Shown piece by piece: positions 44,015 to 63,433 of a DNA stretch of 64,000 nt. Origin of the DNA: Ensifer sp. IC3342. Its GTDB lineage: Bacteria; Pseudomonadota; Alphaproteobacteria; Rhizobiales; Rhizobiaceae. The stretch lies in assembly GCF_020193655.1 (NCBI RefSeq), contig NZ_JADYVE010000005.1, positions 186,001-250,000 of the forward strand. Reading direction: 5' to 3'. The notes under the pieces are model-generated. The model worked only from the letters and a program-made list of their open reading frames with translations, was not told the DNA's origin and did no database searches. Each line of letters begins with the position of its first letter. Positions within the stretch are counted from its first letter, which is position 1. The translations under genes and the position numbers were made by a program.

Positions 44015-45178
44015 ATGGCGAAGGCAGCTGATATGCAGTTCTACGAGAGCCTTCCCCTTTTTGAGGCATTCGAGGGGGTTGCCGACGAGGCCAACTACCG
44101 GCCCTTGCCGGATGGTTGGGTGCTGGCAGTCGCTGACATCGTCGACTCGACCAGCGCCATTGCGGAGGGTCGTTACAAGAGCGTCAATATGGCCGGCGCG
44201 AGCGTCATATCTGCGTTGATGAATGCGCTCGACGAGAGAAACCTACCCTTCGTCTTCGGAGGCGACGGGGCTCTTGCCGCAATACCCGCGGCAATGGCAG
44301 CGAAGGCGCGCGCTGCATTGGCCGACGCGAAGACCTGGGTCGCGGAAGAGCTTGGCCTCGAACTGCGGACAGCCCTTGTTCCGGTCGCCGACATCCGTGC
44401 CAACGGGCTCGACATGCACATCGCGCGCTTCAAGGCGAGCGAGGAGGTCTCCTACGCCATGTTTTCCGGTGGCGGTGCCAGTTGGGCAGAGGCGGAAATG
44501 AAAGCGGGGCGCTACCAGATCGAGGCCGCGGCGGCCGGAAGCAGGCCGGATCTGACCGGGCTATCCTGCCGCTGGAATCCGATTGTCTCCCGGCACGGGG
44601 CCATCGTCTCGATCATTGCCGTTCCGGGTCTGCGCGGCAATGGTCCGGAGTTCCAGGCACTGGTCGGTGATATCGTGGCATTGGCCGAAGGCGAGGAACG
44701 CGGGGGGCATCCCGTGCCGGAGAACGGGCCAGAGCCTCGGCTCTCCATGCAAGGGGTTGCAGTCGAGTCTCGCGCTATGGCGCGGAAAGGCCGACGTCTC
44801 ATCGCCTGGTCGTGGATAACGCTCCAGAGCCTGGTGCTGTTCGTGTGCTTCAAGCTGGGATGGAATATCGGCACGTTCGATACCACGCAATACAAGCGCG
44901 ACCTGGTCAGAAATTCCGACTTCCGCAAGTTCGACGACGGGCTGAAGATGACGATCGATATCGGCATCGAGCGGCTCAGCCAGATCGAAGAAAGGCTGAA
45001 GCGGGCGGCGGAGGCCGGCGTCTCCAGCTATGGGCTGCATCAGCAGGATTCCGCGCTGATGACCTGCATCGTACCGGCGGCCATGAGCCGCGATCACGTG
45101 CATTTCATCGACGGCGCGGCAGGCGGCTACGCCATGGCGGCGAAAAATCTGAAGGCTGCGCTCGCGCCAGTTGGCTGA
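44015..45178 (+). CDS. DUF3095 protein, class III cyclase-like fold
   Basis: A 387-residue protein of the DUF3095 family. The N-terminal ADIVDSTSAI (Asp41, Asp44) and FGGDGALAAIP (Asp84) match the positions of the metal-binding Asp residues of class III nucleotide cyclases (compare ADMREST and VGDGFIAVYP in the neighbouring cyclase), which suggests a shared fold. A hydrophobic helix (WITLQSLVLFVCFKLGW) lies near residue 270. The family has no firmly known reaction that I can cite. The ATG at 44015 is preferred over a TTG four codons earlier. It is convergent with the nucleotide-sugar dehydrogenase gene. Confidence 0.82.
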   Translation: MAKAADMQFYESLPLFEAFEGVADEANYRPLPDGWVLAVADIVDSTSAIAEGRYKSVNMAGASVISALMNALDERNLPFVFGGDGALAAIPAAMAAKARAALADAKTWVAEELGLELRTALVPVADIRANGLDMHIARFKASEEVSYAMFSGGGASWAEAEMKAGRYQIEAAAAGSRPDLTGLSCRWNPIVSRHGAIVSIIAVPGLRGNGPEFQALVGDIVALAEGEERGGHPVPENGPEPRLSMQGVAVESRAMARKGRRLIAWSWITLQSLVLFVCFKLGWNIGTFDTTQYKRDLVRNSDFRKFDDGLKMTIDIGIERLSQIEERLKRAAEAGVSSYGLHQQDSALMTCIVPAAMSRDHVHFIDGAAGGYAMAAKNLKAALAPVG

Positions 45179-46576: not shown

Positions 46577-46965
46577 GATAGGGTTCCATCTGTCAGGGGC
46601 AGGGCGAGCGATTGCGACGATCCCGACTGCCGGAAAGGTCGCCGTTTTGTTGGCGAGAAAGGCGTCGCAAGTCAAGCGCGGGGCGGAAGGTCGCGGACCA
46701 CCCCAACAATTACAGGGTGCAATTATACGATCAATCCCGTGTACGATCGACGCATGATCAAAAATTTCGAACGTCTCTGGAAATCGGGCTCGCCGGTGAA
46801 TATCTCCAGGAAAGAAGATGCTGCGATTCAATCGCCGCAAGTACTGCCGCCGAGCGCGGCAGACGCCGTTCGTTACAACGGGCATCACAGGTGGACGCGG
46901 CCTTGATTGCAAGGTCCGCGCGATAGCCGTCGGTGTTGGCCGTCATGCCGATAATGAGGAATGCC
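46577..46965. promoter_or_regulatory. Divergent region, sugar dehydrogenase / cyclase
   Basis: The 389 nt between divergent genes include a relatively AT-rich part near 46700-46800. Open frames cross it but lack family sequence. Promoters for both genes are expected. GAGGA sits 6 nt before the cyclase ATG. Confidence 0.35.
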
Positions 46966-48315
46966 ATGAGCCCGATCAACAACAGCGTATCCGAAATTCT
47001 TCTGGACAAGGTCGCAGACTGGCTCATGCGAGCGTCCTTGAGCGACGAGACGCTCGAAACCCTCGTGCGTGGCTTCTGCGAAAGGCTGGCGGCGGCCGGC
47101 CTGCCGCTCATGCGCGTCCATCTATCCTTCTCGATGCTGCATCCGCTCTACGACGCGCTCGGTTTTACCTGGTGGCGCGGCAAGGGCGTCGAAGTAAGCG
47201 GTTTGCGCCATGAGGACCTGGCGCTCAATCCCGAGCGGTTTCTGCGGAGCCCCTATTATTATCTGCTCAACAACAACCTCGACCACGTAAGGCGGCGCAT
47301 CGATCCGGCGGAGGTGTCCGAGTTTCCGATTTTCGATGAGCTGAAAGAGCATGGGGCCACTGATTATCTGGCCTTCATGCAACCGCTCGGGACCGATTCC
47401 GACCATGGCATGGTGGGGTCCTGGACGACGGATCGCCACGGCGGCTTCAGCGACGATGTGATCGCGGCGTTGCTCAAGCTTCAGAATCATCTGGCGGTTG
47501 CCGCCAAGGTCGCCGTCCTCGGCAAACTCGCCGACAACATGTTGACGACCTATCTCGGCGCCAATGCCGGACGGCGCGTGATGAGCGGTCAGGTGCGGCG
47601 CGGTGACGGCGAGACCGTGCGCGCCGTCCTGGTGATGGCGGACATGCGGGAATCGACCATGCTCGCGGAGAAGGAAGGTCGCCAGGCCTATATCGAGACG
47701 CTCAACGGCTTCTTCGATGCGATCGCGACGCCATTCAACCGAAACGGCGGGCAGATCCTGAGCTTCGTTGGAGACGGATTCATCGCCGTCTATCCATGCG
47801 GCCGCCACAAGGAGCCGTCGGAAATGGCGAGCCGCGAGGCCCTTGCTGCAGTGAGCGTGGCGACCGCGCGCGTGGCGGCCCTGAATGCGGAAAGGAAGAG
47901 ACAGGGCCGCGATCCGATCGGCTATGGAATTGGGCTCCATGTGGGCAACGTCATGTTCGGCAATGTCGGGCTTCGCGACCGGCTGACCTTTTCCGTTTTC
48001 GGGTCGGCGGTGAACGAGGTGCAGCGCCTGCAGAGCCTGACGAAAAAATATGCCCACAACGTCGTCGCCAGCGAAGCCTTCGTCAACTATTGCGGCGGCG
48101 ACTGGGCGACGCTCGGCCAGGAAAAACTGCGCGGCGTGCGACAGAAGTTCACCATCCTCTATCCCAAGGACACAGCGCTTGCAGCGATCGCGGAGGAGCG
48201 TCCCGACGATGCAACTCAGGATGGACTTTCCGAGGCAGAGCATGTCATGTTGCTCTATCGCAATACGAAGCAGTCGCCGGGGCCACGCGGCCTCATCGAC
48301 AAGATGTTGCAATAG
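46966..48315 (+). CDS. Class III adenylate/guanylate cyclase
   Basis: A 449-residue cytosolic protein. The C-terminal catalytic domain (about residues 215-400) has the two metal Asp motifs VMADMREST and VGDGFIAVYP, the GIGLHVGNVMFG strand and FGSAVNEVQRLQSL, with the transition-state Asn and Arg. The N-terminal 200 residues hold a GAF- or LuxR-ligand-like sensor region (YLAFMQPLG, WTTDRHGGF) that I cannot name with certainty. It makes cAMP or cGMP from the nucleoside triphosphate. The ATG at 46966 is backed by GAGGA. It is followed by the secreted lyase after 31 nt, so the two may be co-transcribed. Confidence 0.92.
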   Translation: MSPINNSVSEILLDKVADWLMRASLSDETLETLVRGFCERLAAAGLPLMRVHLSFSMLHPLYDALGFTWWRGKGVEVSGLRHEDLALNPERFLRSPYYYLLNNNLDHVRRRIDPAEVSEFPIFDELKEHGATDYLAFMQPLGTDSDHGMVGSWTTDRHGGFSDDVIAALLKLQNHLAVAAKVAVLGKLADNMLTTYLGANAGRRVMSGQVRRGDGETVRAVLVMADMRESTMLAEKEGRQAYIETLNGFFDAIATPFNRNGGQILSFVGDGFIAVYPCGRHKEPSEMASREALAAVSVATARVAALNAERKRQGRDPIGYGIGLHVGNVMFGNVGLRDRLTFSVFGSAVNEVQRLQSLTKKYAHNVVASEAFVNYCGGDWATLGQEKLRGVRQKFTILYPKDTALAAIAEERPDDATQDGLSEAEHVMLLYRNTKQSPGPRGLIDKMLQ

Positions 48316-48346: not shown

Positions 48347-49315
48347 ATGTTCCGTGTGGTTGTTCTGGCCGCAGCCCTCGCTGCGACAACCGTTGCGCAT
48401 GCCCAATCGACAGAACAGCAACCCGCCTTGGAGCAGAAGCTGGTCGACGGGTTCGAGGGGAAGGATTTTGCCCCTGAAGGCGGGCTCTACTATCGCGACA
48501 ACTTCGAACAGAGCGCCGGCACCTATGTGTTTCAAAGCGACGTCAAGCGCACCGGAAGTGGCGGGTTGAAACTGTCCATCGTGCCAAAATGCCTACAACC
48601 CGACGACGGGTGCAGCGAGCGGGCGGAAATCTGGGAAAAGACCGCATTGCGCGTGCCTTACGATCAGGGGGTCTGGTACGGCTTTTCGGTCAAGTTCGCC
48701 GATCCGGTTCCGAGTGGAGACCATCGCTACCTCATTGCGCAATGGAAGCGTGAAATCGATCACGGCGCCAACGGAGACTTCAGCCCCTTTCTGGCGTTCC
48801 GCATGAGCTTGGGTAAGCTCTTCGTTACTGTCGAGACCAATTATCTGCCGCCGGTGTCCACCGGGCCGGAGAACACGCCGGCGAGCTGCGCGCCGGGGGA
48901 GGTTCCCGTCTGGGTGCGACCCGAACTCAACCAGATGCGCATGCTGGTCGCGGCCGATCCGAACTGGAAGCCCGAAGACGGCGGCCTCTTCAATTCATGC
49001 ACAACCGGGATCACCGTCACCAATCACGGCAATCCGCTGCCAGATCCGAAGTCCGGCTGGATCGACTTCGCGGTCTTCACCAAGCCCGGGCCGGACGGTT
49101 CCGGACATATCGAGCTGTTCGCCAATGGTCAGCCGGTCATTACAGTGAAGGGTCATATCGGCCATGCCGACAAGGGGCTCGGCCAGAATCAGTATTTCAA
49201 GTTCGGGCCATACCGGGCGGCGGACACGACCGACTGGACGCTTTATTACGACGATTTCCGCCGCTCGCCGCGGTGCGCCGACGTTCTGACGAACGGCATT
49301 TGCCCGTTCTCATAA
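48347..49315 (+). CDS. Secreted polysaccharide lyase, heparin-lyase-I-like
   Basis: A 322-residue secreted protein. The signal peptide ends after VAHAQ near residue 20. The rest is a beta-jelly-roll with SERAEIWEKTALRVPYDQG, WYGFSVKFADP and YLIAQWKRE, the pattern of the heparin lyase I / PL-like family. It probably cleaves an acidic polysaccharide outside the cytosol by beta-elimination. A ribosome site AAGGAGG lies before the ATG. It follows the cyclase gene closely, which may tie polymer turnover to the cyclic nucleotide signal (inference). The precise substrate is unknown. Confidence 0.85.
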   Translation: MFRVVVLAAALAATTVAHAQSTEQQPALEQKLVDGFEGKDFAPEGGLYYRDNFEQSAGTYVFQSDVKRTGSGGLKLSIVPKCLQPDDGCSERAEIWEKTALRVPYDQGVWYGFSVKFADPVPSGDHRYLIAQWKREIDHGANGDFSPFLAFRMSLGKLFVTVETNYLPPVSTGPENTPASCAPGEVPVWVRPELNQMRMLVAADPNWKPEDGGLFNSCTTGITVTNHGNPLPDPKSGWIDFAVFTKPGPDGSGHIELFANGQPVITVKGHIGHADKGLGQNQYFKFGPYRAADTTDWTLYYDDFRRSPRCADVLTNGICPFS

Positions 49316-49533: not shown

Positions 49534-51426
49534 ATGACATCAGGGGCGGACCTGCTACGGGTTGAGGGTCTGCGGATCACATTCTCGGTGCTCGGCGGCG
49601 AAGTCGAAGCCGTCAGGGGGGCGAATTTCAGGATTCTGCCAGGGAAGGTAACCGCGCTGGTCGGCGAGTCCGGATCCGGTAAGTCGGCGATCAGCCAGGC
49701 AATCATGGGCATTTTGCCGAGCGTTGCGAGGGTCAGCGGAAGGGTCTTGTTCAATGACCCGGCCGTCGCTGGCAAGCCTCAAGATCTGCTCTCGCTCGAG
49801 CCTGACGGGCGCGATATACAGGCCATTCGCGGCGCGCGCATCAGCAAGATCTTCCAGGAGCCGATGACCTCGCTGTCGCCACTCCACACGATCGGGAACC
49901 AGATTTCCGAGGTGCTGGCGATACACACAGACGCGGACAAGGAGGAGCGGAGAGCGAGGACCGAGCAGCTTCTGGGCTATGTCGGATTCTCCAACCCGCC
50001 GCGCGCTTACGACATGTACCCGTTCGAGCTTTCCGGCGGGATGCGGCAGCGCGCGATGATCGCCATGGCGCTGATCTGCCGCCCGGCGCTCCTGATTGCC
50101 GATGAGCCGACCACGGCACTCGATGTGACGGTGCAGGCGCAAATTCTCCAGCTCCTGCGCGAGCTTCAGGCCAAGCTCAACATGGCCATGCTGTTGATCA
50201 CGCACGATCTCGGCGTCGTCGCCAATATGGCCGACGAGGTCGTCGTCATCTATCATGGCGAGATCGTCGAAGCGGGTCCGGTCGATGCAATCTTCCGCAA
50301 TCCCCAGCATCCCTATCTAAAGGGCCTGATGGCCGCTGTGCCGCACTTCGACATGAAGCCCGGCGAACGCCTGAAGGCACTGCGCGAGGTGCCGGTCAAG
50401 GCCGAAAACCTTCTCGGAAATCGACCGGCGCGCAAGACTTCCAGCTCCGATGTTCTCATCTCCGTCCGTAACCTGTCGAAGACCTTCACCACCCGCAACT
50501 CGGGGTGGTTCGGCAGTCAGGATGCCTCCCGACACCGCGCCGTCGACAATGTCAGTTTCGACATTCGCCGCGGCGAATGTCTCGGGCTCGTCGGCGAAAG
50601 CGGCTGCGGCAAGACGACGGTGAGCAAGATTCTGATGCGTGCGGTGACGCCGGATTCGGGATCGATAACTTACGATGACGGCGGCAGGGCGGTCGACGTC
50701 CTGAAACTCGAGGGTGCGGCACTGAAAGAGCTGCGCTCGAAAATCCAGATGGTCTTCCAGGACCCGGTCTCGTCGCTGTCGCCGCGCATGACGGTCAAGA
50801 ACATTCTCAGTGAGCCGCTTGAGATCCATGGGCGTGGAACGCCGAAGTCGCGGATCGAAACCGTTCGCTCGCTGCTTCAGGCCGTCGGCCTCGATCAGCG
50901 TTTCATCAACCGCTATCCGCACAGTTTCTCCGGTGGTCAAAGGCAGCGCATCGGTATCGCCCGCGCGCTGGCGCTCGTTCCGGAACTGTTGATCTGCGAC
51001 GAGCCCGTTTCAGCGCTCGATGTTTCGGTGCAGGCCCAGATTCTCAACCTTCTCAAGGATTTGCAGAAGGAATTGGGCCTGACGTCGCTCTTCATTTCGC
51101 ATAATCTGGCGGTTGTGGACTACATGGCGGACCGGATCGCGGTGATGTGTGCCGGCCGGATCGTCGAACTCGCACCGCGTGAAGTGCTGATGCGCAATCC
51201 CGTACACCCCTATACGAAGTCCTTGCTGGCGGCCGTGCCTTATCCCGATCTCGATCGGAAGCTCGATTTCGACGCCCTCCAGGCAAGCGGAGGCTCGGAC
51301 AAGCGGCGGTGGGGTGCACAGTTCTCGGACGATGGTGAGGAAGACGCCCTTTTTCCCGCGAATCTCGGCGGCGATCATTTCGTTCTTGCTCGAAAGTCGG
51401 TGGATGCAAGGGAGCTACGCCCATGA
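49534..51426 (+). CDS. Fused two-domain ATPase of a peptide-type ABC importer (DppD-DppF/YejF-like)
   Basis: A 630-residue protein with two complete ABC domains. The first has Walker [13 protein letters not shown], signature [10 protein letters not shown] and Walker [13 protein letters not shown]. The second has [22 protein letters not shown] and [12 protein letters not shown]. Each ends with an oligopeptide-type C-terminal extension ([26 protein letters not shown]). It powers uptake through the two permeases encoded downstream. Its TGA overlaps the ATG of the binding-protein gene (ATGA). The four genes form one operon. Confidence 0.95.
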
Positions 51427-53324
51427 TCACCCGGAGAACTGCGCTGGCGATGCTGGCTTCCACCGTTCTTCCGCCGCGGCTGCTTGCGGCGGGAACAGAG
51501 GCCGAGGCGCTCGCGCCGCTGGTTGCGGAAGGCAAGCTTCCTCCGCTCAATGAGCGGCTGCCGAAAACGCCGCGCGTGATCAATGTCGCGGCCAGAGGGC
51601 GGACGCCCGGCAAGCATGGCGGCGAGATCCGAAGCCTCATCGGCAGCGCCAAGGACATCCGCCTGATGACGGTCTACGGCTATTCCCGGCTGGTCGGCTA
51701 CGACGAGCAGCTGAACCTTCAGGCCGATGTTCTCGAAAGCTACGAAACGGTCGAGGACCGCATCTTCACCCTGCGTCTGCGCGAAGGCCATAGGTGGTCG
51801 AATGGGACGCCGCTTTCGACGGAAGACTTCCGCTACTGCTGGGAGGATGTGCTGCTCAACGAGGACCTCTCTCCGGCGGGTCTCCCGACGGCGCTGGTGA
51901 TGGATGGCGAGGCGGGCAAGTTCGAGATCATCGACGAGCGCACAGTGCGTTATTCCTGGTCGATGCCGAACCCGGATTTCCTGCAGAAGCTCGCCGCTCC
52001 GCAGCCGCTGGTCATCGTCATGCCGTCCGCCTATCTCAAGCAGTTCCACAAGAAGTACCAGGACGAGGACAAGCTCAAGGCAAAGATGAAGGAAGAGCGA
52101 GTCAAGAAGTGGAGCCAGCTGCACATGCGCATGGCACGCTCCTATCGCCCGGAAAACCCCGATTTGCCGACGCTCGATCCGTGGCGGAACACCACACCGC
52201 TTCCCGCCGAGCAGTTCATTTTCGAGCGCAATCCGTATTTCCATCGGGTCGACGAAAACGGCCTGCAACTGCCCTACATCGACAAGTTCGTGCTGAACGT
52301 CAGCTCCTCCTCGCTCATCCCGGCGAAAACCGGCACGGGTGAAAGCGACCTCCAGGCGGCGGGCATCGATTTTGTCGACTACACCTTCCTGAAGGATGCG
52401 GAGAAACGCTATCCGATAACGGTCAAGCTGTGGAAGAAGACGCAGGGATCGCGTCTCGCGCTGCTTCCCAACCTTAATGCTTCCGATCCGGTCTGGCGTC
52501 CGCTGCTGCAGGATGTCCGTGTCCGGCGAGCGTTGTCGCTGGCGATCGACCGGCGCGAAATCAACATGGCGGTCTTCTACGGACTGACCAAGGAGAGCGC
52601 CGATACTGTGCTGCCGGATAGTCCGCTGTTCCGTCCCGAATTCGCAAGCGCGTGGGTGGCCTACGATCCGGAGGAGGCCAACAGCCTGCTCGACGCGGCT
52701 GGTCTGGCGAAGCGCGGGAGCGATGGAATCCGTATCCTGCCGGATGGACGGGCGGCCCAGATCGTCGTCGAGACGGCGGGCGAAAGCACGCTTGAAACCG
52801 ATGTTCTGCAACTGATAACCGACTATTGGCGGAACGTCGGCATTTCGCTCTTCATCCGTACTTCCCAGCGCGATACGTTCCGCAGCCGGGCGGTCGGCGG
52901 CGAGATCATCATGTCCATGTGGTTCGGCATCGACAACGGCGTTCCGACCGCGAACATGAATCCGGGTCAACTGGCGCCGACGGCCGACGATCAGTTGCAG
53001 TGGCCGGTCTGGGGATTGAATTACCTGTCGCACGGCGAAATGGGAGAAGCGCCGAAACTGCCGCCGGTTGTCGAGCTTCTTGACTTGCTCAAGCGCTGGC
53101 GGCATTCGAGCACCGACGCGGAGCGGACGGAAATCTGGAAATCGATGCTGTCGATCTATACAGATCAGGTCTTCTCGATCGGCCTCGTCAATGCATCGCT
53201 GCAGCCGATCGTCGTCTCCTCGAAGCTTCGCAATATGCCGGAAGAGGGGCTCTACGGCTTCGATCCGACCAGCTATTTCGGCGTGTACAATCCCGACACC
53301 TTCTGGCTTGAACAGGACACGTGA
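51423..53324 (+). CDS. Periplasmic solute-binding protein, family 5 (peptide/oligosaccharide type)
   Basis: A 633-residue exported binding protein. The N-terminus [20 protein letters not shown] has a twin-arginine-like RR and a cleavable signal ending near LLAAG. The SBP_bac_5 fold shows [20 protein letters not shown] and the late [15 protein letters not shown] motif. At over 600 residues it is long for the family and resembles YejA-type proteins. Ligands may be peptides, modified peptides or glycan fragments. It is coupled to the ATPase upstream and ends 2 nt before the first permease. Confidence 0.92.
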
Positions 53325-53325
53325 C

Positions 53326-54324
53326 ATGCTGCGATACATTCTCTGGCGTATTGCGGCGATGGTTCCGACCCTTCTGATAATCTCGGCCCTGGTGTTCGCT
53401 ATCATCGAGTTGCCGCCGGGAGACTATTTCGAGAGCTACGTGGCCGAGATCAGGGCGCAGGGCGAAGGCGTCAACATGGAGCAGATCGAAGCCCTGCGAA
53501 AAGAATACGGCTTCGATCAACCGCCGCTGCTGCGCTACATCTACTGGGTCGGCGGCATGCTGCAGGGCGACTTCGGCTATTCGTTCGAATATGAACTGCC
53601 GGTGAGCGAGGTCGTCGGAGACCGGCTCTGGCTGACAATCCTTGTCTCCTTCTTCACCATCATGCTGACCTGGATCATCGCCTTTCCGATCGGCATCTAT
53701 GCGGCGACGCATCAATACAGTTGGGGCGATTACGGGCTGTCGCTGGTCGGCCTCATCGGCATAGCGGTGCCTAACTTCATGCTGGCGCTGATTCTCATGT
53801 ATTTCGCCAACATCTGGTTCGGAACCTCGATCGGCCATCTCATGGATCAGCGATATCTCAACGAGCCGATGAGTTGGGCAAAAGCCAAGTCCATGCTCGA
53901 GCACATGTGGATACCGGTGATCATCATCGGCGCGGCGGGAACGGCGGGCATGATCCGGCGGCTCAGGGCCAACCTGCTCGACGAGCTTCAGAAGCAATAT
54001 GTGGTGACGGCGAGAGCGAAGGGGCTCTCACCCACCAAGACCCTGCTCAAATATCCGCTGCGCATGGCACTCAACTTCTTCATCTCCGATATCGGCTCGA
54101 TTCTGCCGGCGATCATCTCCGGCGCGGAAATCACGGCGATCGTCCTCTCACTTGAAACGACGGGTCCGATGTTGATCAAGGCGCTGCAGAGCCAGGATAT
54201 GTACCTCGCCGGCTCGTTCCTTATGTTTCTCGCATTTCTCACCGTCATCGGCGTGCTGATATCCGATCTTGCGCTCGCCGTTCTCGATCCCAGAATCCGT
54301 CTGCAAGGCAGGAGTACGAAGTGA
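53326..54324 (+). CDS. ABC importer permease, DppB/YejB-like
   Basis: A 332-residue inner-membrane protein with the N-terminal MLRYILWRIAAMVPTLLIIS helix, a periplasmic loop (YGFDQPPLLRYIYWVGGMLQ), five further helices and the coupling motif VTARAKGLSPTKTLLKYPLR. The ATG at 53326 lies 2 nt after the binding-protein stop. The TGA overlaps the GTG of the next permease gene (GTGA). It forms the channel with that partner. Confidence 0.94.
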   Translation: MLRYILWRIAAMVPTLLIISALVFAIIELPPGDYFESYVAEIRAQGEGVNMEQIEALRKEYGFDQPPLLRYIYWVGGMLQGDFGYSFEYELPVSEVVGDRLWLTILVSFFTIMLTWIIAFPIGIYAATHQYSWGDYGLSLVGLIGIAVPNFMLALILMYFANIWFGTSIGHLMDQRYLNEPMSWAKAKSMLEHMWIPVIIIGAAGTAGMIRRLRANLLDELQKQYVVTARAKGLSPTKTLLKYPLRMALNFFISDIGSILPAIISGAEITAIVLSLETTGPMLIKALQSQDMYLAGSFLMFLAFLTVIGVLISDLALAVLDPRIRLQGRSTK

Positions 54325-55496
54325 CGTCACCGATTCCGGCGCCCGGCGAACCCCTGCCGCATTATGTGTCGACCGCCCCGTTCGATCCCTATTCCGTCGA
54401 GGTGATGACGGAGGAGCAGGTGCGCGTGAACCAGGCGTCGCAGCTGCGCCTGATGTGGTGGAAGTTCAAGCGGCACAAGTTGGCGCTTGCCTCCGGCATT
54501 TTCCTGGCGGCCCTCTACGTCATGATCCTCTTTTGCGAGTTTCTGGCGCCGTACAACCTGCACACGCGCAACGTCGATTTCATCTATGCGCCGCCGCAGA
54601 CTGTCCGTCTCTTTCATGACGGCGCGTTTGTCAGCCCCTTCGTCTATGGTCGGACGATGACGCTGGACATAGCAACGCTGAAGCGGAACTATGCCGACAA
54701 CCCCTCGGACATCCAGCGGATCCGCTTCTTCTGCCGCGGCGATAGCTATCGTTTCTGGGGACTTTTCGAGAGCAACCTGCATCTCGTCTGTCCCGCGGAG
54801 GGCGGTCAGCTCTTCCTGCTCGGCACCGACAGGCTCGGACGCGACGTGCTGTCGCGCATCATCTACGGCGCGCGGATTTCCCTGACGATCGGCCTTCTCG
54901 GCATCACGGTCAGCTTCGTGCTCGGCATCGTCATCGGCGGCCTCGCTGGCTATCACGGCGGAGTTTTCGATCTGCTGGTCCAGAGACTGATCGAGGTGCT
55001 CCAGTCGATTCCGAGCATTCCGCTGTGGCTGTCGCTTGCAGCCATCATGCCGGCCACATGGAGTCCGATCCTAATCTATCTCGGGATCACGGTGATTCTG
55101 GGGCTTCTCGACTGGACGGGGCTTGCGCGGGCCGTCCGCTCGAAGCTGCTTGCGCTGCGTGAGGAGGACTATGTCCTTGCGGCCCAATTGATGGGCGCGA
55201 AAAGCAGCCGCATCATCGGGCGCCACCTCGTGCCGGGATTCATGTCCCATCTTATTGCAACGGCGACGATCTCCATTCCCGGCATGATCCTCGGCGAGAC
55301 TGCGCTGAGCTTCCTCGGGTTGGGATTGCGTCCGCCGATAACGAGTTGGGGCATCTTGCTGACAGAGGCAAAGAGCGTTAGCGTCATTGCTTTCTATCCC
55401 TGGCTGCTGTTTCCGACTATACCAGTTATTCTTGTGATTTTGGCGTTCAACTTCCTGGGAGATGGGTTGCGCGACGCCGCCGATCCCTACAAATAA
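54321..55496 (+). CDS. ABC importer permease, DppC/YejE-like
   Basis: A 391-residue inner-membrane protein with an N-terminal cytosolic segment, a first helix near residue 55, a long periplasmic loop (about 75-170, including FLLGTDRLGRDVLSRIIYG) and five more helices. The coupling motif is VLAAQLMGAKSSRIIGRHLV. A GTG start overlaps the previous stop and has GGAG upstream. Its length fits YejE-like members better than the shorter DppC. It is the last gene of the importer operon; a glycosyltransferase gene follows 81 nt later. Confidence 0.93.
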   Translation: MTSPIPAPGEPLPHYVSTAPFDPYSVEVMTEEQVRVNQASQLRLMWWKFKRHKLALASGIFLAALYVMILFCEFLAPYNLHTRNVDFIYAPPQTVRLFHDGAFVSPFVYGRTMTLDIATLKRNYADNPSDIQRIRFFCRGDSYRFWGLFESNLHLVCPAEGGQLFLLGTDRLGRDVLSRIIYGARISLTIGLLGITVSFVLGIVIGGLAGYHGGVFDLLVQRLIEVLQSIPSIPLWLSLAAIMPATWSPILIYLGITVILGLLDWTGLARAVRSKLLALREEDYVLAAQLMGAKSSRIIGRHLVPGFMSHLIATATISIPGMILGETALSFLGLGLRPPITSWGILLTEAKSVSVIAFYPWLLFPTIPVILVILAFNFLGDGLRDAADPYK

Positions 55497-55577: not shown

Positions 55578-56792
55578 ATGGTACGGCGTTTCGAGGATGC
55601 CCGGATCCTCATGTACAGCCACGACACTTTCGGCCTCGGTCACCTGCGGCGTTGTCGGACGATCGCGCACGCGCTCGTGGAAGACTATAGCGGGCTGCAG
55701 GTCCTGATCATCTCGGGCGCAACGATCGCCGGGGCGTTCGATTATCGTGCACGCGTCGATTTCGTGAAGATACCGAGCGTCATCAAACTCAGAAACGGTG
55801 AGTACACGTCGCTCGACCGGCATATCGAATTGCACGAGACGCTGAAGATGCGCCAGTCGATCATCCGCTCGACGGCCGAGACGTTCAAGCCGGACATCTT
55901 CATCGTCGACAAGGAGCCCATGGGCCTGCGCGGCGAGGTCGAGGATACGCTCACCTATCTGAAGACCCATGGGACGAAGTTGGTGCTTGGGCTTCGGGAG
56001 ATCATGGACGCACCGCATCTGCTCGAAGTCGAATGGAAGCGGCGCGACACCATGCGCAAGATCGAGCAGTTCTACGATACGATCTGGGTCTATGGCCCGC
56101 CTGATTTCTACGATCCGCTAGTGGGCCTCGAGGTGCCCGCAGCCGTCCGCGAACGCATGAATTTCGTTGGTTTCCTACAACGAAGCGTTCCGCATGACGG
56201 GCTGCCGGACCACAGGCCGGAGGGGGACTATATACTCGTCACCACGGGCGGCGGCGGCGACGGCGCCGAACTCATCCATGACGTGATCCACGCCTATCAG
56301 CAGGATCCCGAACTGACGCATAACGCCCTCGTGGTGCTCGGGCCCTACATGCCGGCCAGGCAACGCAACAAGCTGATCAAGAAGGGCGGTCGCATTCCTT
56401 TCATCAAGATAATCGAGTTCGACAATCGCATGGAAGAACTGATCGCCGGCGCGAGAGGAGTTGTCTCGATGGGCGGCTACAACACCTATTGCGAGATTCT
56501 CTCCTTCGACAAGCCGGCCTTGATCGTGCCGCGTCTCGAGCCGCGGGAGGAGCAGCTGATCCGGGCCCGACGCGCGTCCGACCTTGGCCTCGTCGAGATG
56601 CTGCTTCCACACGAGGCCGAGGATCCGCTGCGGTTTGCAGCTGCGTTGAAGGCTTTGCCGGGGCGCGCGCCGCCATCGCGCGCTGCCAATGGCCTGAGGC
56701 TGGAGGGCCTTGTCCACATCTCCGAGCTCGTCGGCAACTGGCTCGATCACAGATCGAAAGAGCACTTAAGCATCGTGAAGCAGACGAGCTGA
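55578..56792 (+). CDS. MurG-like (GT28-type) glycosyltransferase
   Basis: A 404-residue GT-B protein. The N-terminal YSHDTFGLGHLRRC is the glycine loop of the acceptor domain. The C-terminal part has AGARGVVSMGGYNTYCEIL and LIVPRLEPREEQLIRA, the GT28 donor-binding pattern. AAAGG precedes the ATG. It begins a run of three overlapping or near-touching glycosyltransferase genes (4 nt gap to the next). It has the same fold as the third gene at 58041-59204, which suggests an old duplication. Substrate unknown. Confidence 0.86.
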   Translation: MVRRFEDARILMYSHDTFGLGHLRRCRTIAHALVEDYSGLQVLIISGATIAGAFDYRARVDFVKIPSVIKLRNGEYTSLDRHIELHETLKMRQSIIRSTAETFKPDIFIVDKEPMGLRGEVEDTLTYLKTHGTKLVLGLREIMDAPHLLEVEWKRRDTMRKIEQFYDTIWVYGPPDFYDPLVGLEVPAAVRERMNFVGFLQRSVPHDGLPDHRPEGDYILVTTGGGGDGAELIHDVIHAYQQDPELTHNALVVLGPYMPARQRNKLIKKGGRIPFIKIIEFDNRMEELIAGARGVVSMGGYNTYCEILSFDKPALIVPRLEPREEQLIRARRASDLGLVEMLLPHEAEDPLRFAAALKALPGRAPPSRAANGLRLEGLVHISELVGNWLDHRSKEHLSIVKQTS

Positions 56793-56796
56793 GCCA

Positions 56797-58044
56797 GTGT
56801 CGCCGAATCGCAAGATTGCCGTCATCCTGAAAGGCTATCCGCGCCTGTCGGAAACGTTCATTGCGCAGGAACTGCTCGGCCTCGAAAAGGCCGGGCACGA
56901 ACTCGTTCTCGTCGCGCTCCGTCGTCCGACCGATGACAGGCGTCATCCCGTGCACGACGAAATCCGGGCCGACGTCCACTATTTGCCGGAATATCTGCAT
57001 GAGGAACCATGGCGCGTGCTTCGCGCCACGTTCCGCTTGATGCCGAAAGCCGGCTTCTGGCGCGCGCTTGGCCCATTCCTTTGGGATCTCGTGCGCGACC
57101 CGTCGCGCAATCGTTTCCGGCGGTTCGGTCAGGCGCTGGTGCTGGCCGCCGAATGGCCGGGCGCAGCGACCTGGCTTCACGCGCATTTCATTCACACACC
57201 GGCTTCGGTGGCCGGCTATGCCAGCATCATCGCCGGCATACCCTGGACCTGCTCCGCCCATGCCAAGGACATCTGGACGTCGTCCAACTGGGAGCTTTCC
57301 GGAAAGCTCGACCGCGCCCGCTGGACCGTTACCTGCACGCGGAGCGGCTTTGAGCATCTGCAAAGCCTGACGCCCGAGAAATCGCGGGTGCATCTGAGCT
57401 ACCACGGTCTCGACCTCGACCGCTTCCCGGTTTTTGGCGGCGACCATTCCCGCCGCGACGGCTCCGACCCGGACGATCCGGTGCGCATCGTCAGCGTCGG
57501 ACGCGCCGTCGCCAAAAAGGGCTACGACATCCTGCTGAAGGCCCTGTCGCTGCTGCCGGCCGATCTCGACTGGCGCTTCGATCACATCGGCTCGGGCGAA
57601 CTGGCTGGCGACCTCAAGAAGCTTGCCACCGAGCTCGGTCTTGCCGAGCGGATCCGCTGGAAGGGCGCGCTCGACCAGACCGACGTGCTTCAGCATTACC
57701 GCGACAGCGACATCTTCGCGCTCGCCTGCCGGGTCACGGCAAATGGTGATCGTGATGGCCTGCCGAACGTTCTGGTGGAAGCGTCCAGCCAGCGGCTGCC
57801 TTGCGTCTCGACATCCGTCTCGGGCGTTCCGGAATTGCTGACGGACTATCAGAACGGTCTCCTCGTGCCGCCCGAGGACCCGCGGGCGCTTGCCGTGGCG
57901 CTCGAACGGCTGGTTCGCGACCCGGATCTCAGGCGACAACTCGGCACTGCTGCCGAACAGCGGGTTCGCGCCGAGTTCGACCATCACTCGAGCGTCACAC
58001 AGTTGATCGGGCTCTTTCAAAGCGAGTGGAGCAAAGCCTCTTGA
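56797..58044 (+). CDS. Glycosyltransferase family 4 (colanic-acid-transferase-like)
   Basis: A 415-residue GT-B enzyme. Its opening AVILKGYPRLSETFIAQELL is typical of the WcaL-like GT4 group (YPxLSETFI). Donor motifs are IVSVGRAVAKKGYDILL and DGLPNVLVEASSQ. The GTG start is 4 nt after the previous stop. Its TGA overlaps the TTG start of the following gene (TTGA). It should add one sugar of the glycan made by this three-gene set. Confidence 0.9.
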   Translation: MSPNRKIAVILKGYPRLSETFIAQELLGLEKAGHELVLVALRRPTDDRRHPVHDEIRADVHYLPEYLHEEPWRVLRATFRLMPKAGFWRALGPFLWDLVRDPSRNRFRRFGQALVLAAEWPGAATWLHAHFIHTPASVAGYASIIAGIPWTCSAHAKDIWTSSNWELSGKLDRARWTVTCTRSGFEHLQSLTPEKSRVHLSYHGLDLDRFPVFGGDHSRRDGSDPDDPVRIVSVGRAVAKKGYDILLKALSLLPADLDWRFDHIGSGELAGDLKKLATELGLAERIRWKGALDQTDVLQHYRDSDIFALACRVTANGDRDGLPNVLVEASSQRLPCVSTSVSGVPELLTDYQNGLLVPPEDPRALAVALERLVRDPDLRRQLGTAAEQRVRAEFDHHSSVTQLIGLFQSEWSKAS

Positions 58045-59204
58045 ACAAGCGTCGGGTCTTCTTTTACGTGCAGCATCTGCTCGGCATCGGGCATCTGGCG
58101 CGAGCGAGCCGTATCGCTAAAGCGTTGTCCGTCGACGGGTTCGACGTCACGATGGTCACGGGCGGCGCATCGGTTCCCGGTTTTCCGGGCGACGGTCTGG
58201 CGACGATCGCGCTGCCGTCGGTTACGGCCGGCGACAAAGGCTTTACCGGCCTGAGCGATGCCGACGGCAATCCGGTCACGGCTGCTTTCCAGCAGCACCG
58301 CAAGAACCTGTTGATCGAAGCGCTGCATGCATCGAAGCCTGATGTCGTCATCATCGAGGCCTTCCCGTTCGGTCGCAGACAGATGCGCTTCGAATTGCTG
58401 CCGCTGCTCGATGCCATCGCAGCCATGGAGCCGCGGCCGCTGGTGGCGACTTCGCTGCGTGATATACTGCAGGAACGGGTCAAGCCCGGCCGTGCAGAGG
58501 AGACCGTGGATCTGGTCAAGGCGCATTTCGATCTCGTGCTTGTCCACGGCGACCCGGCGTTTGCGCGTCTCGAGGAGACCTTTCCGCTCGCGAGAGAGAT
58601 CGCGGAAAAGGTTGCCTACACGGGTCTCGTCGCACCGCCTCCGCCAGCCGAAGCGAAGGAGAAATTCGACATCGTGGTTTCGGCCGGTGGTGGTGCTGTC
58701 GGGAAGGATCTGATAAGCGCGGCACTTGGCGCGGCAACGAAGCTGCCGAAGGCGCTCCGCTGGTGCATCGTTACCGGGCCCAATCTGCCGCAGGGAGATT
58801 TCGATGATCTCACCACTGCGGCTCCCGACGGGGTCAGCCTCTTCCGCTTTCGCCAGGATTTTGCAGGCCTGCTCGCGGGCGCGCGGCTCTCAGTCTCGCA
58901 GGCAGGATACAACACCGTGTGCGACATTCTTCGCGCCGGCTGCGGCTCGTTGCTCATTCCCTTCACGGCGGGCGGCGAAACCGAGCAGAGCACACGCGCA
59001 GCGCGGCTCGAAAGGCTCGGCCTTGCGGGCGTCCTGCCGGAAGAAGGGATCACGTCCGACCGGCTCGCACGGGACATAGAGGCGATGCTTGCGCGACCGA
59101 AGCCGGAGATTCCGCCGCTCGATCTCAACGGCGCTGCCAGGACTGCAACAATCATCAGGGAAGAGCTGCAACAGCGGGAGGTCAGACCGTCCCGATCAGC
59201 ATGA
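58041..59204 (+). CDS. MurG-like (GT28-type) glycosyltransferase
   Basis: A 387-residue protein resembling the product of 55578-56792. The N-terminal FFYVQHLLGIGHLARASRI carries the glycine loop, and the C-terminal AGARLSVSQAGYNTVCDIL and LLIPFTAGGETEQSTRA match the GT28 donor domain. The frame is open far upstream through the GT4 gene, but homology starts only here, so the TTG at 58041 overlapping the previous TGA is taken as the start. Its 3' end overlaps the convergent methyltransferase gene by 23 nt. Confidence 0.85.
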   Translation: MNKRRVFFYVQHLLGIGHLARASRIAKALSVDGFDVTMVTGGASVPGFPGDGLATIALPSVTAGDKGFTGLSDADGNPVTAAFQQHRKNLLIEALHASKPDVVIIEAFPFGRRQMRFELLPLLDAIAAMEPRPLVATSLRDILQERVKPGRAEETVDLVKAHFDLVLVHGDPAFARLEETFPLAREIAEKVAYTGLVAPPPPAEAKEKFDIVVSAGGGAVGKDLISAALGAATKLPKALRWCIVTGPNLPQGDFDDLTTAAPDGVSLFRFRQDFAGLLAGARLSVSQAGYNTVCDILRAGCGSLLIPFTAGGETEQSTRAARLERLGLAGVLPEEGITSDRLARDIEAMLARPKPEIPPLDLNGAARTATIIREELQQREVRPSRSA

Positions 59205-59850
59205 AGCGATTGTATTTCTTCATCGGCAACGCGCCTGCAAAATGGAGCTTCGAAAGACCGGCCCGCGCTTGGAATTCCTCGAGCGAGGATACGCAGCTTA
59301 TATGCGTCGGTTCGCTGAAATAGTCGTTTGACTGCAGCAGGACGCGCGTGCCCGAAGGAAGGAGCTCAAGCCAGAGCTTGAGATCGGCAATGTGCTCGCA
59401 ACTCGTGTTGATGATCAGATCGGCTCCGATCGTACGATAGTCGAGAGCATACATATCCGCCGTGATCGCGCGGAAGCGGTCACCATGCACTGAATTGAGC
59501 GTGCGTGCGACCTCTTCGACCGCAGGATCGATGTCGTAACTGTCGATGGCGCCGATGTTGAAGCGCGTGTCCTCGAAAAGCATCGCGGGCAGAATGCCGT
59601 ACCAGCCGCCAAGCACGGCTACGCGGTTGAAGGCCGAGCCGGCGCTTTCGAAGAGCTTGTCACGCGCCCAGATCTTGCAGCCGACCTGCTTGTAATTGAA
59701 CGCGTTGGCGATGTCCGCATCCGGGTGCTTGGCGATCACCCTGCCTATGCCCGCCACCACGGCGCTGCCGGAATAGGCGGCGATCCCGCGCACGAGATCA
59801 TAGGCGTTCTCGTGCCAATCTTCGGGGTGAGTATGGGTGGCATGCATCAT
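59182..59850 (-). CDS. Probable class I SAM-dependent methyltransferase
   Basis: A 222-residue protein with a Rossmann-type SAM site: VAVLGGWYGILPAML (motif I), SYDIDPAVEEVA (acidic loop) and ITADMYALDY followed by LIINTSCEH (motif IV region). The acceptor is unknown. The ATG pair at 59850/59847 is preferred over a start at 59916, which would add unrelated residues; the ribosome site is weak. It is divergent from the ABC gene at 60164, and its 3' end overlaps the glycosyltransferase gene by 23 nt. Confidence 0.68.
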   Translation of the reverse strand: MMHATHTHPEDWHENAYDLVRGIAAYSGSAVVAGIGRVIAKHPDADIANAFNYKQVGCKIWARDKLFESAGSAFNRVAVLGGWYGILPAMLFEDTRFNIGAIDSYDIDPAVEEVARTLNSVHGDRFRAITADMYALDYRTIGADLIINTSCEHIADLKLWLELLPSGTRVLLQSNDYFSEPTHISCVSSLEEFQARAGLSKLHFAGALPMKKYNRFMLIGTV

Positions 59851-60163
59851 GAGGCTGTTGTAAGCTGATGGGTAGGCGAGTGCAAGCCACGCGCGAGTAT
59901 GCCTCGAGCCGCACATGCTCGCCGTATCTGCAAGGATACCGTCCGGGCCTTGCGGAAGGGGCGATCTGTTCGACGGATGTTACCCGTGGTTCGCGTCCGC
60001 TTGACATGGGGCAAGGCTCTGCTCTCATGCCGGGCAGTCACGATTCCGTGGATGAAGCGCGAGTCCATTGACGATTTGATGGACTGTAACCATTTGCGAC
60101 GGGAGTCCGCCGGCCCTATCGGTCCGGTGATCCTGTATTTAAGTTAGGTCACATTGCCAGCAC
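59851..60163. promoter_or_regulatory. Divergent region, methyltransferase / degenerate ABC gene
   Basis: The 313 nt between divergent genes hold no supportable gene, although several short frames cross it. Promoters for both directions are expected here; no boxes were assigned. Confidence 0.35.
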
Positions 60164-62875
60164 ATGGAAACACGTCTTTCCCGCTACATCTGGACCCACA
60201 CGCGCAAGCAGCAGCTTTGGATCCTGCTGGTCGTCGCGCTGTCGATGATACCTTATTTCCTGTCCTTCGATCTTCCCAAGCAGATCGTCAACGGACCGAT
60301 TCAGGGTGAAGGTTTCGAAGGTCCCGAGGCGACCCAGGCATTCCTGCCGGTTTCCTTCAACCTGCCCGGTTTCGGCGAGGTCAACCTGTTTTCGGGCTTT
60401 CAACTTGAGCGAGAGGGAATGCTGCTTGCCCTCAGCCTTGTCTTCCTGCTGCTCGTCATCGTCAACGGGCTCTTCAAGTTCTACATCAATACCTACAAGG
60501 GCCGGCTCGGCGAGCGCCTCCTGCGGCGCATCCGCTTCGAACTCGTCGACCGCGTGCTGCGCTTCCCGCCGAGCCACTTCAAGCGCGTGAAGCCCGCCGA
60601 AATCTCGACCATGATCAAGGACGAGGTCGAGCCGCTTGGCGGGTTCACCGGCGATGCCTTCGTGCAACCGGCGCTCCTCGGCGGCCAGGCTTTGACGGCG
60701 CTGATCTTCATTCTGCTCCAGAGCCTATGGCTTGGTCTCATCGCCGCCTTTATCGTCGCGATACAGGCGGTGATCATTCCACGCATGCGGCGGCGGTTGA
60801 TCGTGCTCGGGCGCGAGCGCCAGTTGACGGCGCGGGAATTGTCGGGACGGGTCAGCGAGATCGTGGACGGCATCGGAACCATTCGCGGGCACGACACGTC
60901 CAACTATGAAAGAGCCGACATTGCTGCCCGCCTCGGCCGGATATTCAAGATCCGCTACGACCTCTATCAGTGGAAGTTCCTGGTCAAGTTCCTGAACAAC
61001 TTCCTGGCTCAGGTTACTCCATTCCTGTTCTACTCGATCGGCGGCTACTTCGCCCTGCAGGGGCGGCTCGATATCGGCCAGCTCGTTGCGGTGATCGGCG
61101 CCTACAAGGACCTGCCGGGTCCGCTGAAAGAACTCATCGACTGGGATCAGGCGCGGCAGGACGTGCAGGTCAAATACGCCCAGGTCGTCGAGCAGTTCAG
61201 CGTCGAGCCGCTGATCGACCCCGGTGTTCAGGCGATCTCCGTAACCTCCGTGGCGCCGATCACCGGGGCTCTTGCAGCCGTCAATCTTTCAGTTGCCGAT
61301 GACGGCGGTTCGAGGCTCGTGGAACACGTGTCGCTGCAGGTGCGCCCCGGCGAGGCCATCGCGATCACGGGCGGCTCCACCGGCGGCGGCGAGGCGCTCG
61401 CCGAGGCCTTCGGGCGCCTGACGTGGCCCGAAAGCGGCAGGATCGTCGTCGGCGACGACGATATCCACGACCTGCCGGAATCGATCGTCGGGCGGCGGAT
61501 CTCCTACGCCTCGTCGGAGGTCTACACCTTCCAGGGCAGCTTGGGTGATAATCTGCTTTACGGTCTCAAGCACGCGCCGCTGACAGAGGTGGTCTACGAG
61601 GGCGACAAGGCTGCCCACCGACGGTGGGAGCTGCTGGAAGCAAAACTTGCCGGCAATCCCTCGCTCGACCTCAACAGCGACTGGATCGATTATGGAGCGG
61701 CGGCTGCAACCGGCCCGGATGACCTCTTCGCGAAGGTCAGAGAGGTGCTCGACACGGTGCTTCTCACAAACGACATCATGGCGCTTGCCGTCCGCTCGAC
61801 CATCAATCCCGCGCAGCACGAAGCATTTGCGGGTGAGATCGTGGCGATGCGCGGGGCCCTTCGCAGGCGTCTCGAGGCCGAGAAGCTCAGTGACTTGGTC
61901 GTGTTCTTCGAGCCTGGTTCCTACAATGTCGAGGCGACGATCGGCGAGAACCTGCTGTTCGGGACGGTGACCGATCAGGCGCGGTGGGAAAAGGCGCTCG
62001 AAGACCACCCGTTCTTCAAGACCGTCTTGAAGAGGGCCGGCCTGCACGAGGCCTTCTACGAGATGGGACTCGAAATCGCCGGGAACGTCGTCGAGCTGTT
62101 CCGCGACCTGCCTCCGGACCACCCGTTCTTCCAGCAGCTCACCTTCATGGCGGCGGAAGAAATCCCGGCCTATGAGGCGCTTCTCCAGAAGCTGAGGGGA
62201 CGGGCAATCGACGAAGTTTCCGAGGATGATGCCATCAAGATCATCCGCCTGTGCTTCGGCTACATCGAGCCACGCCACCGCTTCGGCCTGCTGTCCGAAG
62301 AACTTATGTCTCAGATCGTCAAGGCGCGGCGGGAATTCAGCGAAGGTCTGCCCGAGGACCTCATCGGTATCATCGAGCACTATCAGCCGAACCACTATAT
62401 GGCATCGGCCAGCATCATCGATAACGTGCTCTTTGGTCGTATCGGCCATAGGCACACCGACGGCTCCGAGAGAATCCGCGCGATCGTGCGCGACCTTTTC
62501 GAAACGCTCGGACTTTACAACAACGTGCTTGCCTTCGGACTTGACTTCGACGTCGGCGCCGGCGGCAAGCGGTTGACGGCGGGGCAGCGGCAGAAGCTCA
62601 ATCTTGCGCGTGCATTGATCCGCATGTCGGATTTCTACATCTTCAATCAACCGCTGCTCGCCCTTGACCAGCGGGCACAGGAGCAGATCACCCGCAACGT
62701 CTTTGCCTTCTTGAGGCAGGACGACCGTAAACCGGCGATCGTCTGGGTTCTCGCCAATCCGGCTCTTTCCGAGTTGTTCGATCGCCAGGCGCACTTCGAA
62801 AACGGCCATCTCGTAAGGGACGAAGCTGTGGAAACAGCGGCGAAAGACAGCGACTACAAGGAACTGGCATCTTGA
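60164..62875 (+). CDS. ABC-exporter-fold protein with degenerate, enlarged nucleotide-binding domain
   Basis: A 903-residue protein. Residues 15-350 form a type I exporter membrane domain (about six helices; coupling segments RLLRRIRFELVDRVLRFPPS and ELSGRVSEIVDGIGTIRGHD). The nucleotide-binding domain follows from about 370. Walker A reads GSTGGGEA (404-411), with the Lys replaced by Glu410. The Q-loop Gln is missing (SYASSEVYTF, 447-456). The signature LTAGQ (804-808) is kept. Walker B ends FNQP, with Asp-Glu changed to Asn828-Gln829. The H-loop His is absent (WVLANP, 861-866). About 340 residues are inserted between Q-loop and signature. ATP hydrolysis is unlikely. It is followed by a cNMP-binding protein gene after 60 nt. 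Confidence 0.88.
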   Translation: METRLSRYIWTHTRKQQLWILLVVALSMIPYFLSFDLPKQIVNGPIQGEGFEGPEATQAFLPVSFNLPGFGEVNLFSGFQLEREGMLLALSLVFLLLVIVNGLFKFYINTYKGRLGERLLRRIRFELVDRVLRFPPSHFKRVKPAEISTMIKDEVEPLGGFTGDAFVQPALLGGQALTALIFILLQSLWLGLIAAFIVAIQAVIIPRMRRRLIVLGRERQLTARELSGRVSEIVDGIGTIRGHDTSNYERADIAARLGRIFKIRYDLYQWKFLVKFLNNFLAQVTPFLFYSIGGYFALQGRLDIGQLVAVIGAYKDLPGPLKELIDWDQARQDVQVKYAQVVEQFSVEPLIDPGVQAISVTSVAPITGALAAVNLSVADDGGSRLVEHVSLQVRPGEAIAITGGSTGGGEALAEAFGRLTWPESGRIVVGDDDIHDLPESIVGRRISYASSEVYTFQGSLGDNLLYGLKHAPLTEVVYEGDKAAHRRWELLEAKLAGNPSLDLNSDWIDYGAAAATGPDDLFAKVREVLDTVLLTNDIMALAVRSTINPAQHEAFAGEIVAMRGALRRRLEAEKLSDLVVFFEPGSYNVEATIGENLLFGTVTDQARWEKALEDHPFFKTVLKRAGLHEAFYEMGLEIAGNVVELFRDLPPDHPFFQQLTFMAAEEIPAYEALLQKLRGRAIDEVSEDDAIKIIRLCFGYIEPRHRFGLLSEELMSQIVKARREFSEGLPEDLIGIIEHYQPNHYMASASIIDNVLFGRIGHRHTDGSERIRAIVRDLFETLGLYNNVLAFGLDFDVGAGGKRLTAGQRQKLNLARALIRMSDFYIFNQPLLALDQRAQEQITRNVFAFLRQDDRKPAIVWVLANPALSELFDRQAHFENGHLVRDEAVETAAKDSDYKELAS

Positions 62876-62935
62876 TGTAATATAAATGTGAGGGCGCAAG
62901 CATATCTTCCCGATTGCAAGGGGAGGGAGGTGCTT

Positions 62936-63433
62936 ATGCTCGCGACACACTCGGAGAAACGAACTGTTATGCTCCTAAAAGACGAAGTGGAAATGCTGCG
63001 CCGGATCACGCTGTTTTCCGGCTTGCCGCCAGCCAAGCTCAAACTTCTGGCATTCACCTCCGACAGGGTAATATACGGCGCGGGAGAAAGTCTGTTCCAT
63101 CAGGGCGATATCGGCGACGCGGCCTATGTGATCCTTTCCGGTAGAGCCGATGTGCTGGTTGCGACGCAAACCGGGCAATTGAAGGTCGCCGAGGTGGAGC
63201 AGAATTCGATCGTCGGCGAGATCGCCATTCTCTGCAACACGCCGCGCACGGCGACCGTCAAGACCACCACGGCCCTCGAGGCGCTGCGCATTCGCAAGGA
63301 CGATTTCCTGAAATTGCTGGCCGACTTCCCGGAAATGGCAGTGGAAATCATGCGCGTGCTTGCCGACCGCCTCAGCCAGACAACCTCCGAACTCACCGAA
63401 GCGCGCAGCCGCGCCCAGCGGGCAGAGGCGTAA
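62936..63433 (+). CDS. Stand-alone cyclic-nucleotide-binding domain protein
   Basis: A 165-residue cytosolic protein formed almost entirely by one CRP-type cNMP-binding domain. It has ITLFSGLPPAKLKLLA, the GDIGDAAYVILSGRADVLV beta-roll and the phosphate-binding cassette VGEIAILCNTPRTATVKT, with the Glu and Arg that contact the cyclic nucleotide. No helix-turn-helix follows, so it is not a CRP-like transcription factor; the C-terminal 30 residues are a charged helix. A strong GGAGGGAGG precedes the ATG at 62936. It lies 60 nt after the degenerate ABC gene and probably shares its transcript, which suggests it acts on that protein. Confidence 0.9.
   Translation: MLATHSEKRTVMLLKDEVEMLRRITLFSGLPPAKLKLLAFTSDRVIYGAGESLFHQGDIGDAAYVILSGRADVLVATQTGQLKVAEVEQNSIVGEIAILCNTPRTATVKTTTALEALRIRKDDFLKLLADFPEMAVEIMRVLADRLSQTTSELTEARSRAQRAEA

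Follow-up and report, generated by a model that had tools for sequence, protein, structure and literature searches.

The window analysed here, a 64,000-nucleotide stretch of the genome of Ensifer sp. IC3342 (contig NZ_JADYVE010000005.1, positions 186,001 to 250,000), contains a gene for a protein with the fold of an ATP-binding cassette (ABC) exporter and a degenerate ATP site. Based on sequence comparisons, we propose, with a probability of roughly 0.48, that this pseudo-ABC protein is a non-hydrolysing membrane protein switched by a subunit consisting of a cyclic-nucleotide-binding domain (CNBD) and acting in a polysaccharide pathway. The protein belongs to an alphaproteobacterial family; the genome is of the Sinorhizobium/Ensifer type, with nearest named relatives 94 to 97% identical. 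Pfam places ABC_membrane (PF00664, E 1e-19), the transmembrane domain (TMD) of ABC exporters, at residues 88 to 311 and finds ABC_tran, the fold of the nucleotide-binding domain (NBD), as two separate stretches within the 903 residues. The gene, its parts, and its downstream partner are as follows:

60164-62875, + strand: pseudo-ABC exporter-fold protein, ATG start, 903 amino acids (aa)
60164-61198, + strand: transmembrane domain, residues 1-345, under the tightest constraint of all parts (ratio of nonsynonymous to synonymous substitution rates, dN/dS, 0.068)
61370-61393, + strand: degenerate Walker A GGSTGGGE, residues 403-410, with Lys replaced by Gly409 and Ser/Thr by Glu410
61481-61915, + strand: unit 1, residues 440-584, Q-loop region copy 1 plus helices, aligned by hhalign to units 2 and 3
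61901-62392, + strand: unit 2, residues 580-743, Q-loop region copy 2 (YNVEATIGENLLFG), found by hhalign and containing Asn596
62369-62713, + strand: unit 3, residues 736-850, Q-loop region copy 3, helical part, signature, Walker B, and D-loop, found by hhalign
62573-62587, + strand: signature LTAGQ, residues 804-808
62633-62650, + strand: degenerate Walker B FYIFNQ, residues 824-829
62888-63433, + strand: stand-alone CNBD protein, 181 aa (Pfam cNMP_binding, E 3e-20)

An earlier note, made from the letters of this DNA, had described the same frame as an exporter-fold protein stripped of its catalytic ATPase motifs, and its coordinates, strand, and length are correct. Its reading of Walker A, which had Glu410 in place of the Lys and Ala411 in place of the Ser/Thr, is off by one residue: with the register set by alignment to MsbA and to relatives reading GxxGxGK, the window has GGSTGGGE where GxxGxGK[ST] is canonical, and the two positions are Gly409 and Glu410. 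The remaining losses that it listed are borne out, as the Q-loop Gln is absent (Ser451, in the context YASSEVY), Walker B Asp-Glu is replaced by Asn828-Gln829, and the H-loop His is absent (Asn865, in the context IVWVLANPAL). The motifs that it described as kept are also there, namely, LTAGQ at the signature position (canonically LSGGQ) and the ALD of the D-loop at residues 833 to 835. The A-loop aromatic is gone as well (Val377), with Tyr, Phe, or Trp at this position in 28 of 236 relatives.

As judged from the aligned relatives, erosion of the ATP site is family-wide but uneven. Family counts refer to 236 distinct relatives, obtained by removing 11 duplicates from a 247-row set from which two fragments (L035 and L126), a second record of the same place (L038, same as L070), four paralogues with a diverged TMD (L274 to L277), and a TMD fragment (L278) were excluded. 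Position 409 is Gly in 71, Ala in 68, Arg in 57, and Lys in 28; position 410 is Glu in 142, Asp in 40, Thr in 21, and Ser in 14; position 828 is Asn in 172 and Asp in 50; and position 829 is Arg in 104, Gln in 35, Glu in 33, and Asp in 25. The Q-loop Gln is present in 12 relatives, a His at 864/865 in 21, and the signature Gln in 213, while an intact GK[ST] occurs in four (L121, L230, L233, and L258). The earlier note had asked whether the substitutions are conserved in rhizobial orthologues and had stated that orthologues with the canonical Lys, Glu, and His would speak against its reading. Conservation holds for the rhizobial group, to which the best 80 named relatives all belong (10 of them duplicate other rows in the full set): none carries the Lys, 79 have Glu or Asp at 410, all 80 have Asn828, and one has the catalytic Glu. 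In distant orders, some relatives retain canonical residues, which by the note's own standard speaks in part against its reading; the full combination of Lys, Ser/Thr, Asp, Glu, and His occurs in 0/236 relatives. Since distant orthologues keep Lys, Glu829, or His, the loss is better described as lineage-wise erosion than as one fixed set of changes, and some of these orthologues may still bind or hydrolyse ATP. On an unrooted TMD tree of 141 rows built by a quick method, the window's group forms one supported clade of 56 rows, 54 of which carry Gly, Ala, or Ser at position 409. Lys-bearing rows are scattered over this tree, with at least three Lys changes forced by supported branches and their direction unreadable without a root; the ATPase is therefore eroded in more than one lineage.

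Among the alternatives, the one that survives best is that ATP is still bound but hydrolysed very slowly or not at all; like the ATP in CFTR's degenerate site, it would be a structural ligand or report on energy status, and the CNBD would provide a second input. We consider this unlikely, although it has a precedent in the stable ATP binding without hydrolysis that excerpts of PMC7756269 describe for degenerate ABC sites, and the 28 relatives with a Walker A Lys and the 213 with a signature Gln are in keeping with it. Positions 410 and 828 also pair as if an acid had moved across the site: in the 247-row set, which includes the 11 duplicates and in which rows with other letters were left uncounted, Glu or Asp at 410 accompanies Asn828 in 172 rows, Ser or Thr at 410 accompanies Asp828 in 29, and 17 are mixed. 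However, only about four contrasts behind this pattern are independent, and on the tree it does not reach significance. The window's protein, having neither the Lys, the Ser/Thr, nor the A-loop aromatic, should moreover have lost the usual contacts to ATP.

The cyclic nucleotide sensor that the earlier note had seen beside the gene turns out to be a near-obligate partner. In 231 of the 236 distinct relatives, a CNBD gene immediately follows the pseudo-ABC gene in the same orientation, or the CNBD forms a C-terminal fusion; by locus set, the counts are 121/122 (one place counted twice) and 123/128, with L258 scored as CNBD bearing from L300, a later retrieval of the same place. Downstream CNBD frames start no more than 380 nucleotides past the pseudo-ABC stop codon in all cases. 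This near-constant neighbour or fusion suggests that a signal, rather than ATP, controls the protein. Pfam finds no DNA-binding domain in the window's 181-aa CNBD protein. Its pocket motif GE...R[ST], which we take to be that of cAMP-type CNBDs, reads VGEIAILCNTPRTATV, and the motif is retained in 111/121 and 114/123 relatives. The best NCBIfam match of this protein is an acetyltransferase family, far below its cut-off (65 of 460 bits), followed by TIGR03896 (cyc_nuc_ocin, bacteriocin-type, transport-associated CNBD proteins; E 3e-13), likewise far below at 49.9 bits for a cut-off of 161. We detected no CNBD in five relatives, L092 (searched for 1.3 kb downstream), L215, L230, L233, and L282, the last four of which all carry the Walker A Lys; L230 adjoins a tgt-like gene, and the glycosyltransferases of the cluster are absent within 10 kb of it. 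A clade of fused pseudo-ABC-CNBD proteins (L268 to L272 and L265) has a barely recognisable Walker A, with three copies in a single genome (G584). The four excluded paralogues, from order family f42, match in their C-terminal half (family positions ~364 to 890), have a strongly diverged TMD, and have a CNBD nearby in one case of four; they could represent a second subunit or a further derived form.

The NBD is about 300 aa longer than normal, a feature absent from the earlier note, and the extra residues lie between Walker A and the signature. They hold additional copies of the Q-loop/helical segment, bringing the total to three by hhalign; against ordinary exporters, unit 1 aligns with an E value of 2e-12 and unit 3, over 88 columns, with 8e-25. 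Two Asn residues of the extra segment, one of them Asn596 in unit 2, are kept in 236/236 (Asn596) and 235/236 distinct relatives, which exceeds every residue of the ATP site.

The proposed polysaccharide connection comes from the genes upstream, where the glycosyltransferase run mentioned in the earlier note is present as three genes recognised by Pfam:

42931-43761, - strand: metallo-beta-lactamase (MBL)-fold hydrolase, 41% identical to one adjoining distant relatives
44003-45178, + strand: DUF3095 protein (PF11294, E 5e-133), also in the R. etli locus
45239-46912, - strand: UDP-glucose/GDP-mannose dehydrogenase family (nucleotide sugar dehydrogenase), same neighbour in S. meliloti and R. etli
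46933-48315, + strand: class III adenylate/guanylate cyclase (PF00211, E 3e-9), 11.8 kb upstream, in the same place in S. meliloti and R. etli
48347-49315, + strand: polysaccharide lyase family protein (PF14099, E 1e-37)
49534-55496, + strand: peptide-type ABC importer (double ATPase, family 5 binding protein, two permeases)
55578-56792, + strand: glycosyltransferase (Glyco_tran_28_C)
56797-58044, + strand: glycosyltransferase, GT4 type
57801-59204, + strand: glycosyltransferase (Glyco_tran_28_C), open reading frame (ORF) as listed

Going upstream from the pseudo-ABC gene, the window thus holds the three glycosyltransferases, importer, lyase, cyclase, nucleotide sugar dehydrogenase, DUF3095 gene, and MBL gene. 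The S. meliloti order is MBL, nucleotide sugar dehydrogenase, cyclase, a hypothetical protein, importer, glycosyltransferases, pseudo-ABC, and CNBD, and its gene table has one glycosyltransferase fewer and no DUF3095 gene. On R. etli p42e, the dehydrogenase, cyclase, importer, three glycosyltransferases, pseudo-ABC, and CNBD are arranged alike, with no lyase gene listed and the MBL gene further away. The importer keeps its gene order in both species and is near in Azospirillum, where importer and glycosyltransferase genes adjoin a longer pseudo-ABC gene; in Ruegeria TM1040, none of these neighbours lies within 5 kb downstream. We also surveyed 58 wide loci, which are those with long upstream flanks, chosen for diversity rather than at random, with each ORF assigned to its best seed. 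Three glycosyltransferase types occur in 37, 41, and 38 of them and a fourth in 32, with at least three types together in 36; 38 loci have a class III cyclase, 34 have an MBL-fold gene, and 50 have one or the other. The window's genome has 42 cyclase matches in all, and many of 16 genomes searched carry a further class III cyclase of ~630 to 760 aa some 13 to 22 kb from the pseudo-ABC gene, outside the flanks covered here. The third glycosyltransferase ORF of the window overlaps the second by ~240 bases, and its true start is probably further in. In nearly all loci of the genus, the pair lies between two further genes: one at 59182-59916 (- strand), named a methyltransferase in S. meliloti and without a Pfam match, and an FkbM-type methyltransferase gene from 63653 onward (+ strand). 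Genes related to the first also adjoin several distant pseudo-ABC-CNBD fusions.

These loci bear on a second alternative, in which the protein would form a heterodimeric exporter as its degenerate half, together with a catalytic half from another place in the genome; this seems quite improbable. In bacteria, the two halves of a heterodimeric exporter are usually neighbouring genes, and a search of the wide loci with one canonical exporter as the query found a second exporter-like half-transporter in 0/58. The signature Gly807 is present in only 80 of the 247 rows (duplicates included), which also argues against this alternative. The partly kept LTAGQ is in its favour, as is the frequency of degenerate sites in heterodimeric and full-length exporters, described as common in the portions of PMC7756269 cited here.

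The gene is present in 32/32 other genomes of the genus, 31 times as a single full-length match and once split across two contigs. An in-frame TAG interrupts one of the 31 full-length copies (L035, in genome G012), while four Sinorhizobium records (H47 to H50) match only 85 to 87% of the query and may be interrupted copies. With the window's own genome included throughout, the gene occurs in 116/397 genomes of the order (E ≤ 1e-60), in 98/289 of the class (profile E ≤ 1e-80), and in 26/299 of a phylum sample (profile E ≤ 1e-80), where the one positive outside the class is a TMD fragment. From the 98 class-level positives, 30 automatically retrieved loci and a hand-picked set of mostly weak ones were examined, and fractions at this level are not a fair sample. 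The median dN/dS of 0.093 (19 pairs) indicates strong purifying selection. By region, the ratio is 0.068 in the TMD, 0.135 in the head of the NBD, 0.092 in the insertion, and 0.093 in the tail of the NBD. Values for a canonical exporter from this genus (16 pairs) are 0.047 in the NBD and 0.063 in the TMD; the usual order of constraint is therefore inverted in the pseudo-ABC protein, whose TMD is held more tightly than its NBD. Such a constrained TMD would suit a third alternative, in which an ion gradient powers secondary transport through an ABC scaffold, as in SbmA/BacA (SLiPT), and the dead NBD has become a regulatory base. For SbmA, PMC13316013 describes an ABC-type TMD that can run on the proton gradient. 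We nevertheless give this idea little credence. Judging by where we place the helix boundaries, the TMD columns that are at least 90% acidic (2, 36, 117, 146, 154, 156, 164, 232, 316, 323, and 333) appear to fall at these boundaries or on the cytosolic side rather than in an intramembrane ladder. Decay of a functionless gene, to which the in-frame TAG and the 85 to 87% matches might point, is refuted by the dN/dS of 0.09, together with open frames in nearly all listed relatives and the invariance of Asn596; the earlier note's view of an intact, selected gene rather than a pseudogene is upheld by the same value and by the presence in all 32 same-genus genomes.

Switching by a cyclic nucleotide could work as follows. 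The half-size exporter-fold protein, presumably a homodimer, would use its NBD no longer as an ATPase but as a docking and switching platform, on which the CNBD, separate in the window and C-terminally fused elsewhere, would sit. A cyclic nucleotide, for example, from the cyclase of the locus, which is a plausible signal source, would bind the CNBD, alter the platform, and thereby alter the transmembrane pathway, which would gate or regulate a lipid-linked sugar, a polymer, or an ion in the surrounding polysaccharide pathway. Several observations weigh against this proposal. Nine relatives, all from other orders of Alphaproteobacteria, keep Lys, Glu, and His together and might still hydrolyse ATP. 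The pocket motif is missing from 10/121 and 9/123 CNBDs. All four glycosyltransferase types are absent from 15 of the 58 wide loci, so the link to sugars is not universal. A CNBD is present in 24 of the 28 Lys-retaining relatives, which means that it did not simply replace ATP. Retention of the Lys is associated with absence of the CNBD (Fisher p 0.0007, without correction for shared ancestry), but of the four Lys rows that lack a CNBD, three belong to a single lineage; we regard the association as suggestive. A bolder version, which we consider rather unlikely, is that the CNBD subunit took over the driving or gating role of ATP. The result would be a bacterial ABC protein gated by cyclic nucleotides and sharing a polysaccharide locus with a dedicated cyclase. 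The ATP site would then be eroding in several lineages, the extra Q-loop/helical copies rather than that site would carry the conserved function, and relatives with Lys, Glu, and His would be intermediates.

Public records, where they name relatives, call them ABC transporter ATP-binding protein or similar, and our literature searches listed nothing that we recognised as a description of the pseudo-ABC family. With MsbA/ABCB-type (type IV) exporters, the protein shares the fused TMD-NBD half-transporter, matching in sequence over the TMD and NBD head and in fold over the TMD and NBD, but it differs in the lost ATP-site residues and in the ~300 extra residues with additional Q-loop/helical copies. 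The ABC exporter fold is used for purposes other than pumping in CFTR and SUR, as a channel or channel regulator. CFTR keeps a hydrolysing second site, according to excerpts of PMC7756269, whereas both sites of a homodimer would be degenerate here. HetC of Nostoc PCC 7120, a fusion of CNBD, C39 peptidase, and ABC exporter, shares the tie between CNBD and exporter; in the portions of PMC10986499 drawn on here, this CNBD is N-terminal, binds ppGpp, and is required in vivo, and HetC also depends on its ATPase Glu. In contrast, the ATPase of the window's protein is degenerate (Gln829), the CNBD is separate or C-terminal, and Pfam finds only ABC_membrane and ABC_tran, with no C39 peptidase domain. 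SbmA/BacA show that an exporter-type TMD can work without ATP (PMC13316013, in part), but SLiPTs have no NBD, whereas the window's protein retains one that is larger than usual and has a CNBD as its partner. ABC exporters are defined by their use of ATP. This widely conserved family would illustrate the passage from a pump to a signal-gated membrane device, with the ATP site given up, the fold kept, the NBD enlarged by its own helical module, and a tie to a second-messenger sensor. For rhizobia and other alphaproteobacteria, whose genomes can encode many cyclases, it would moreover be a direct, non-transcriptional target of cyclic nucleotides.
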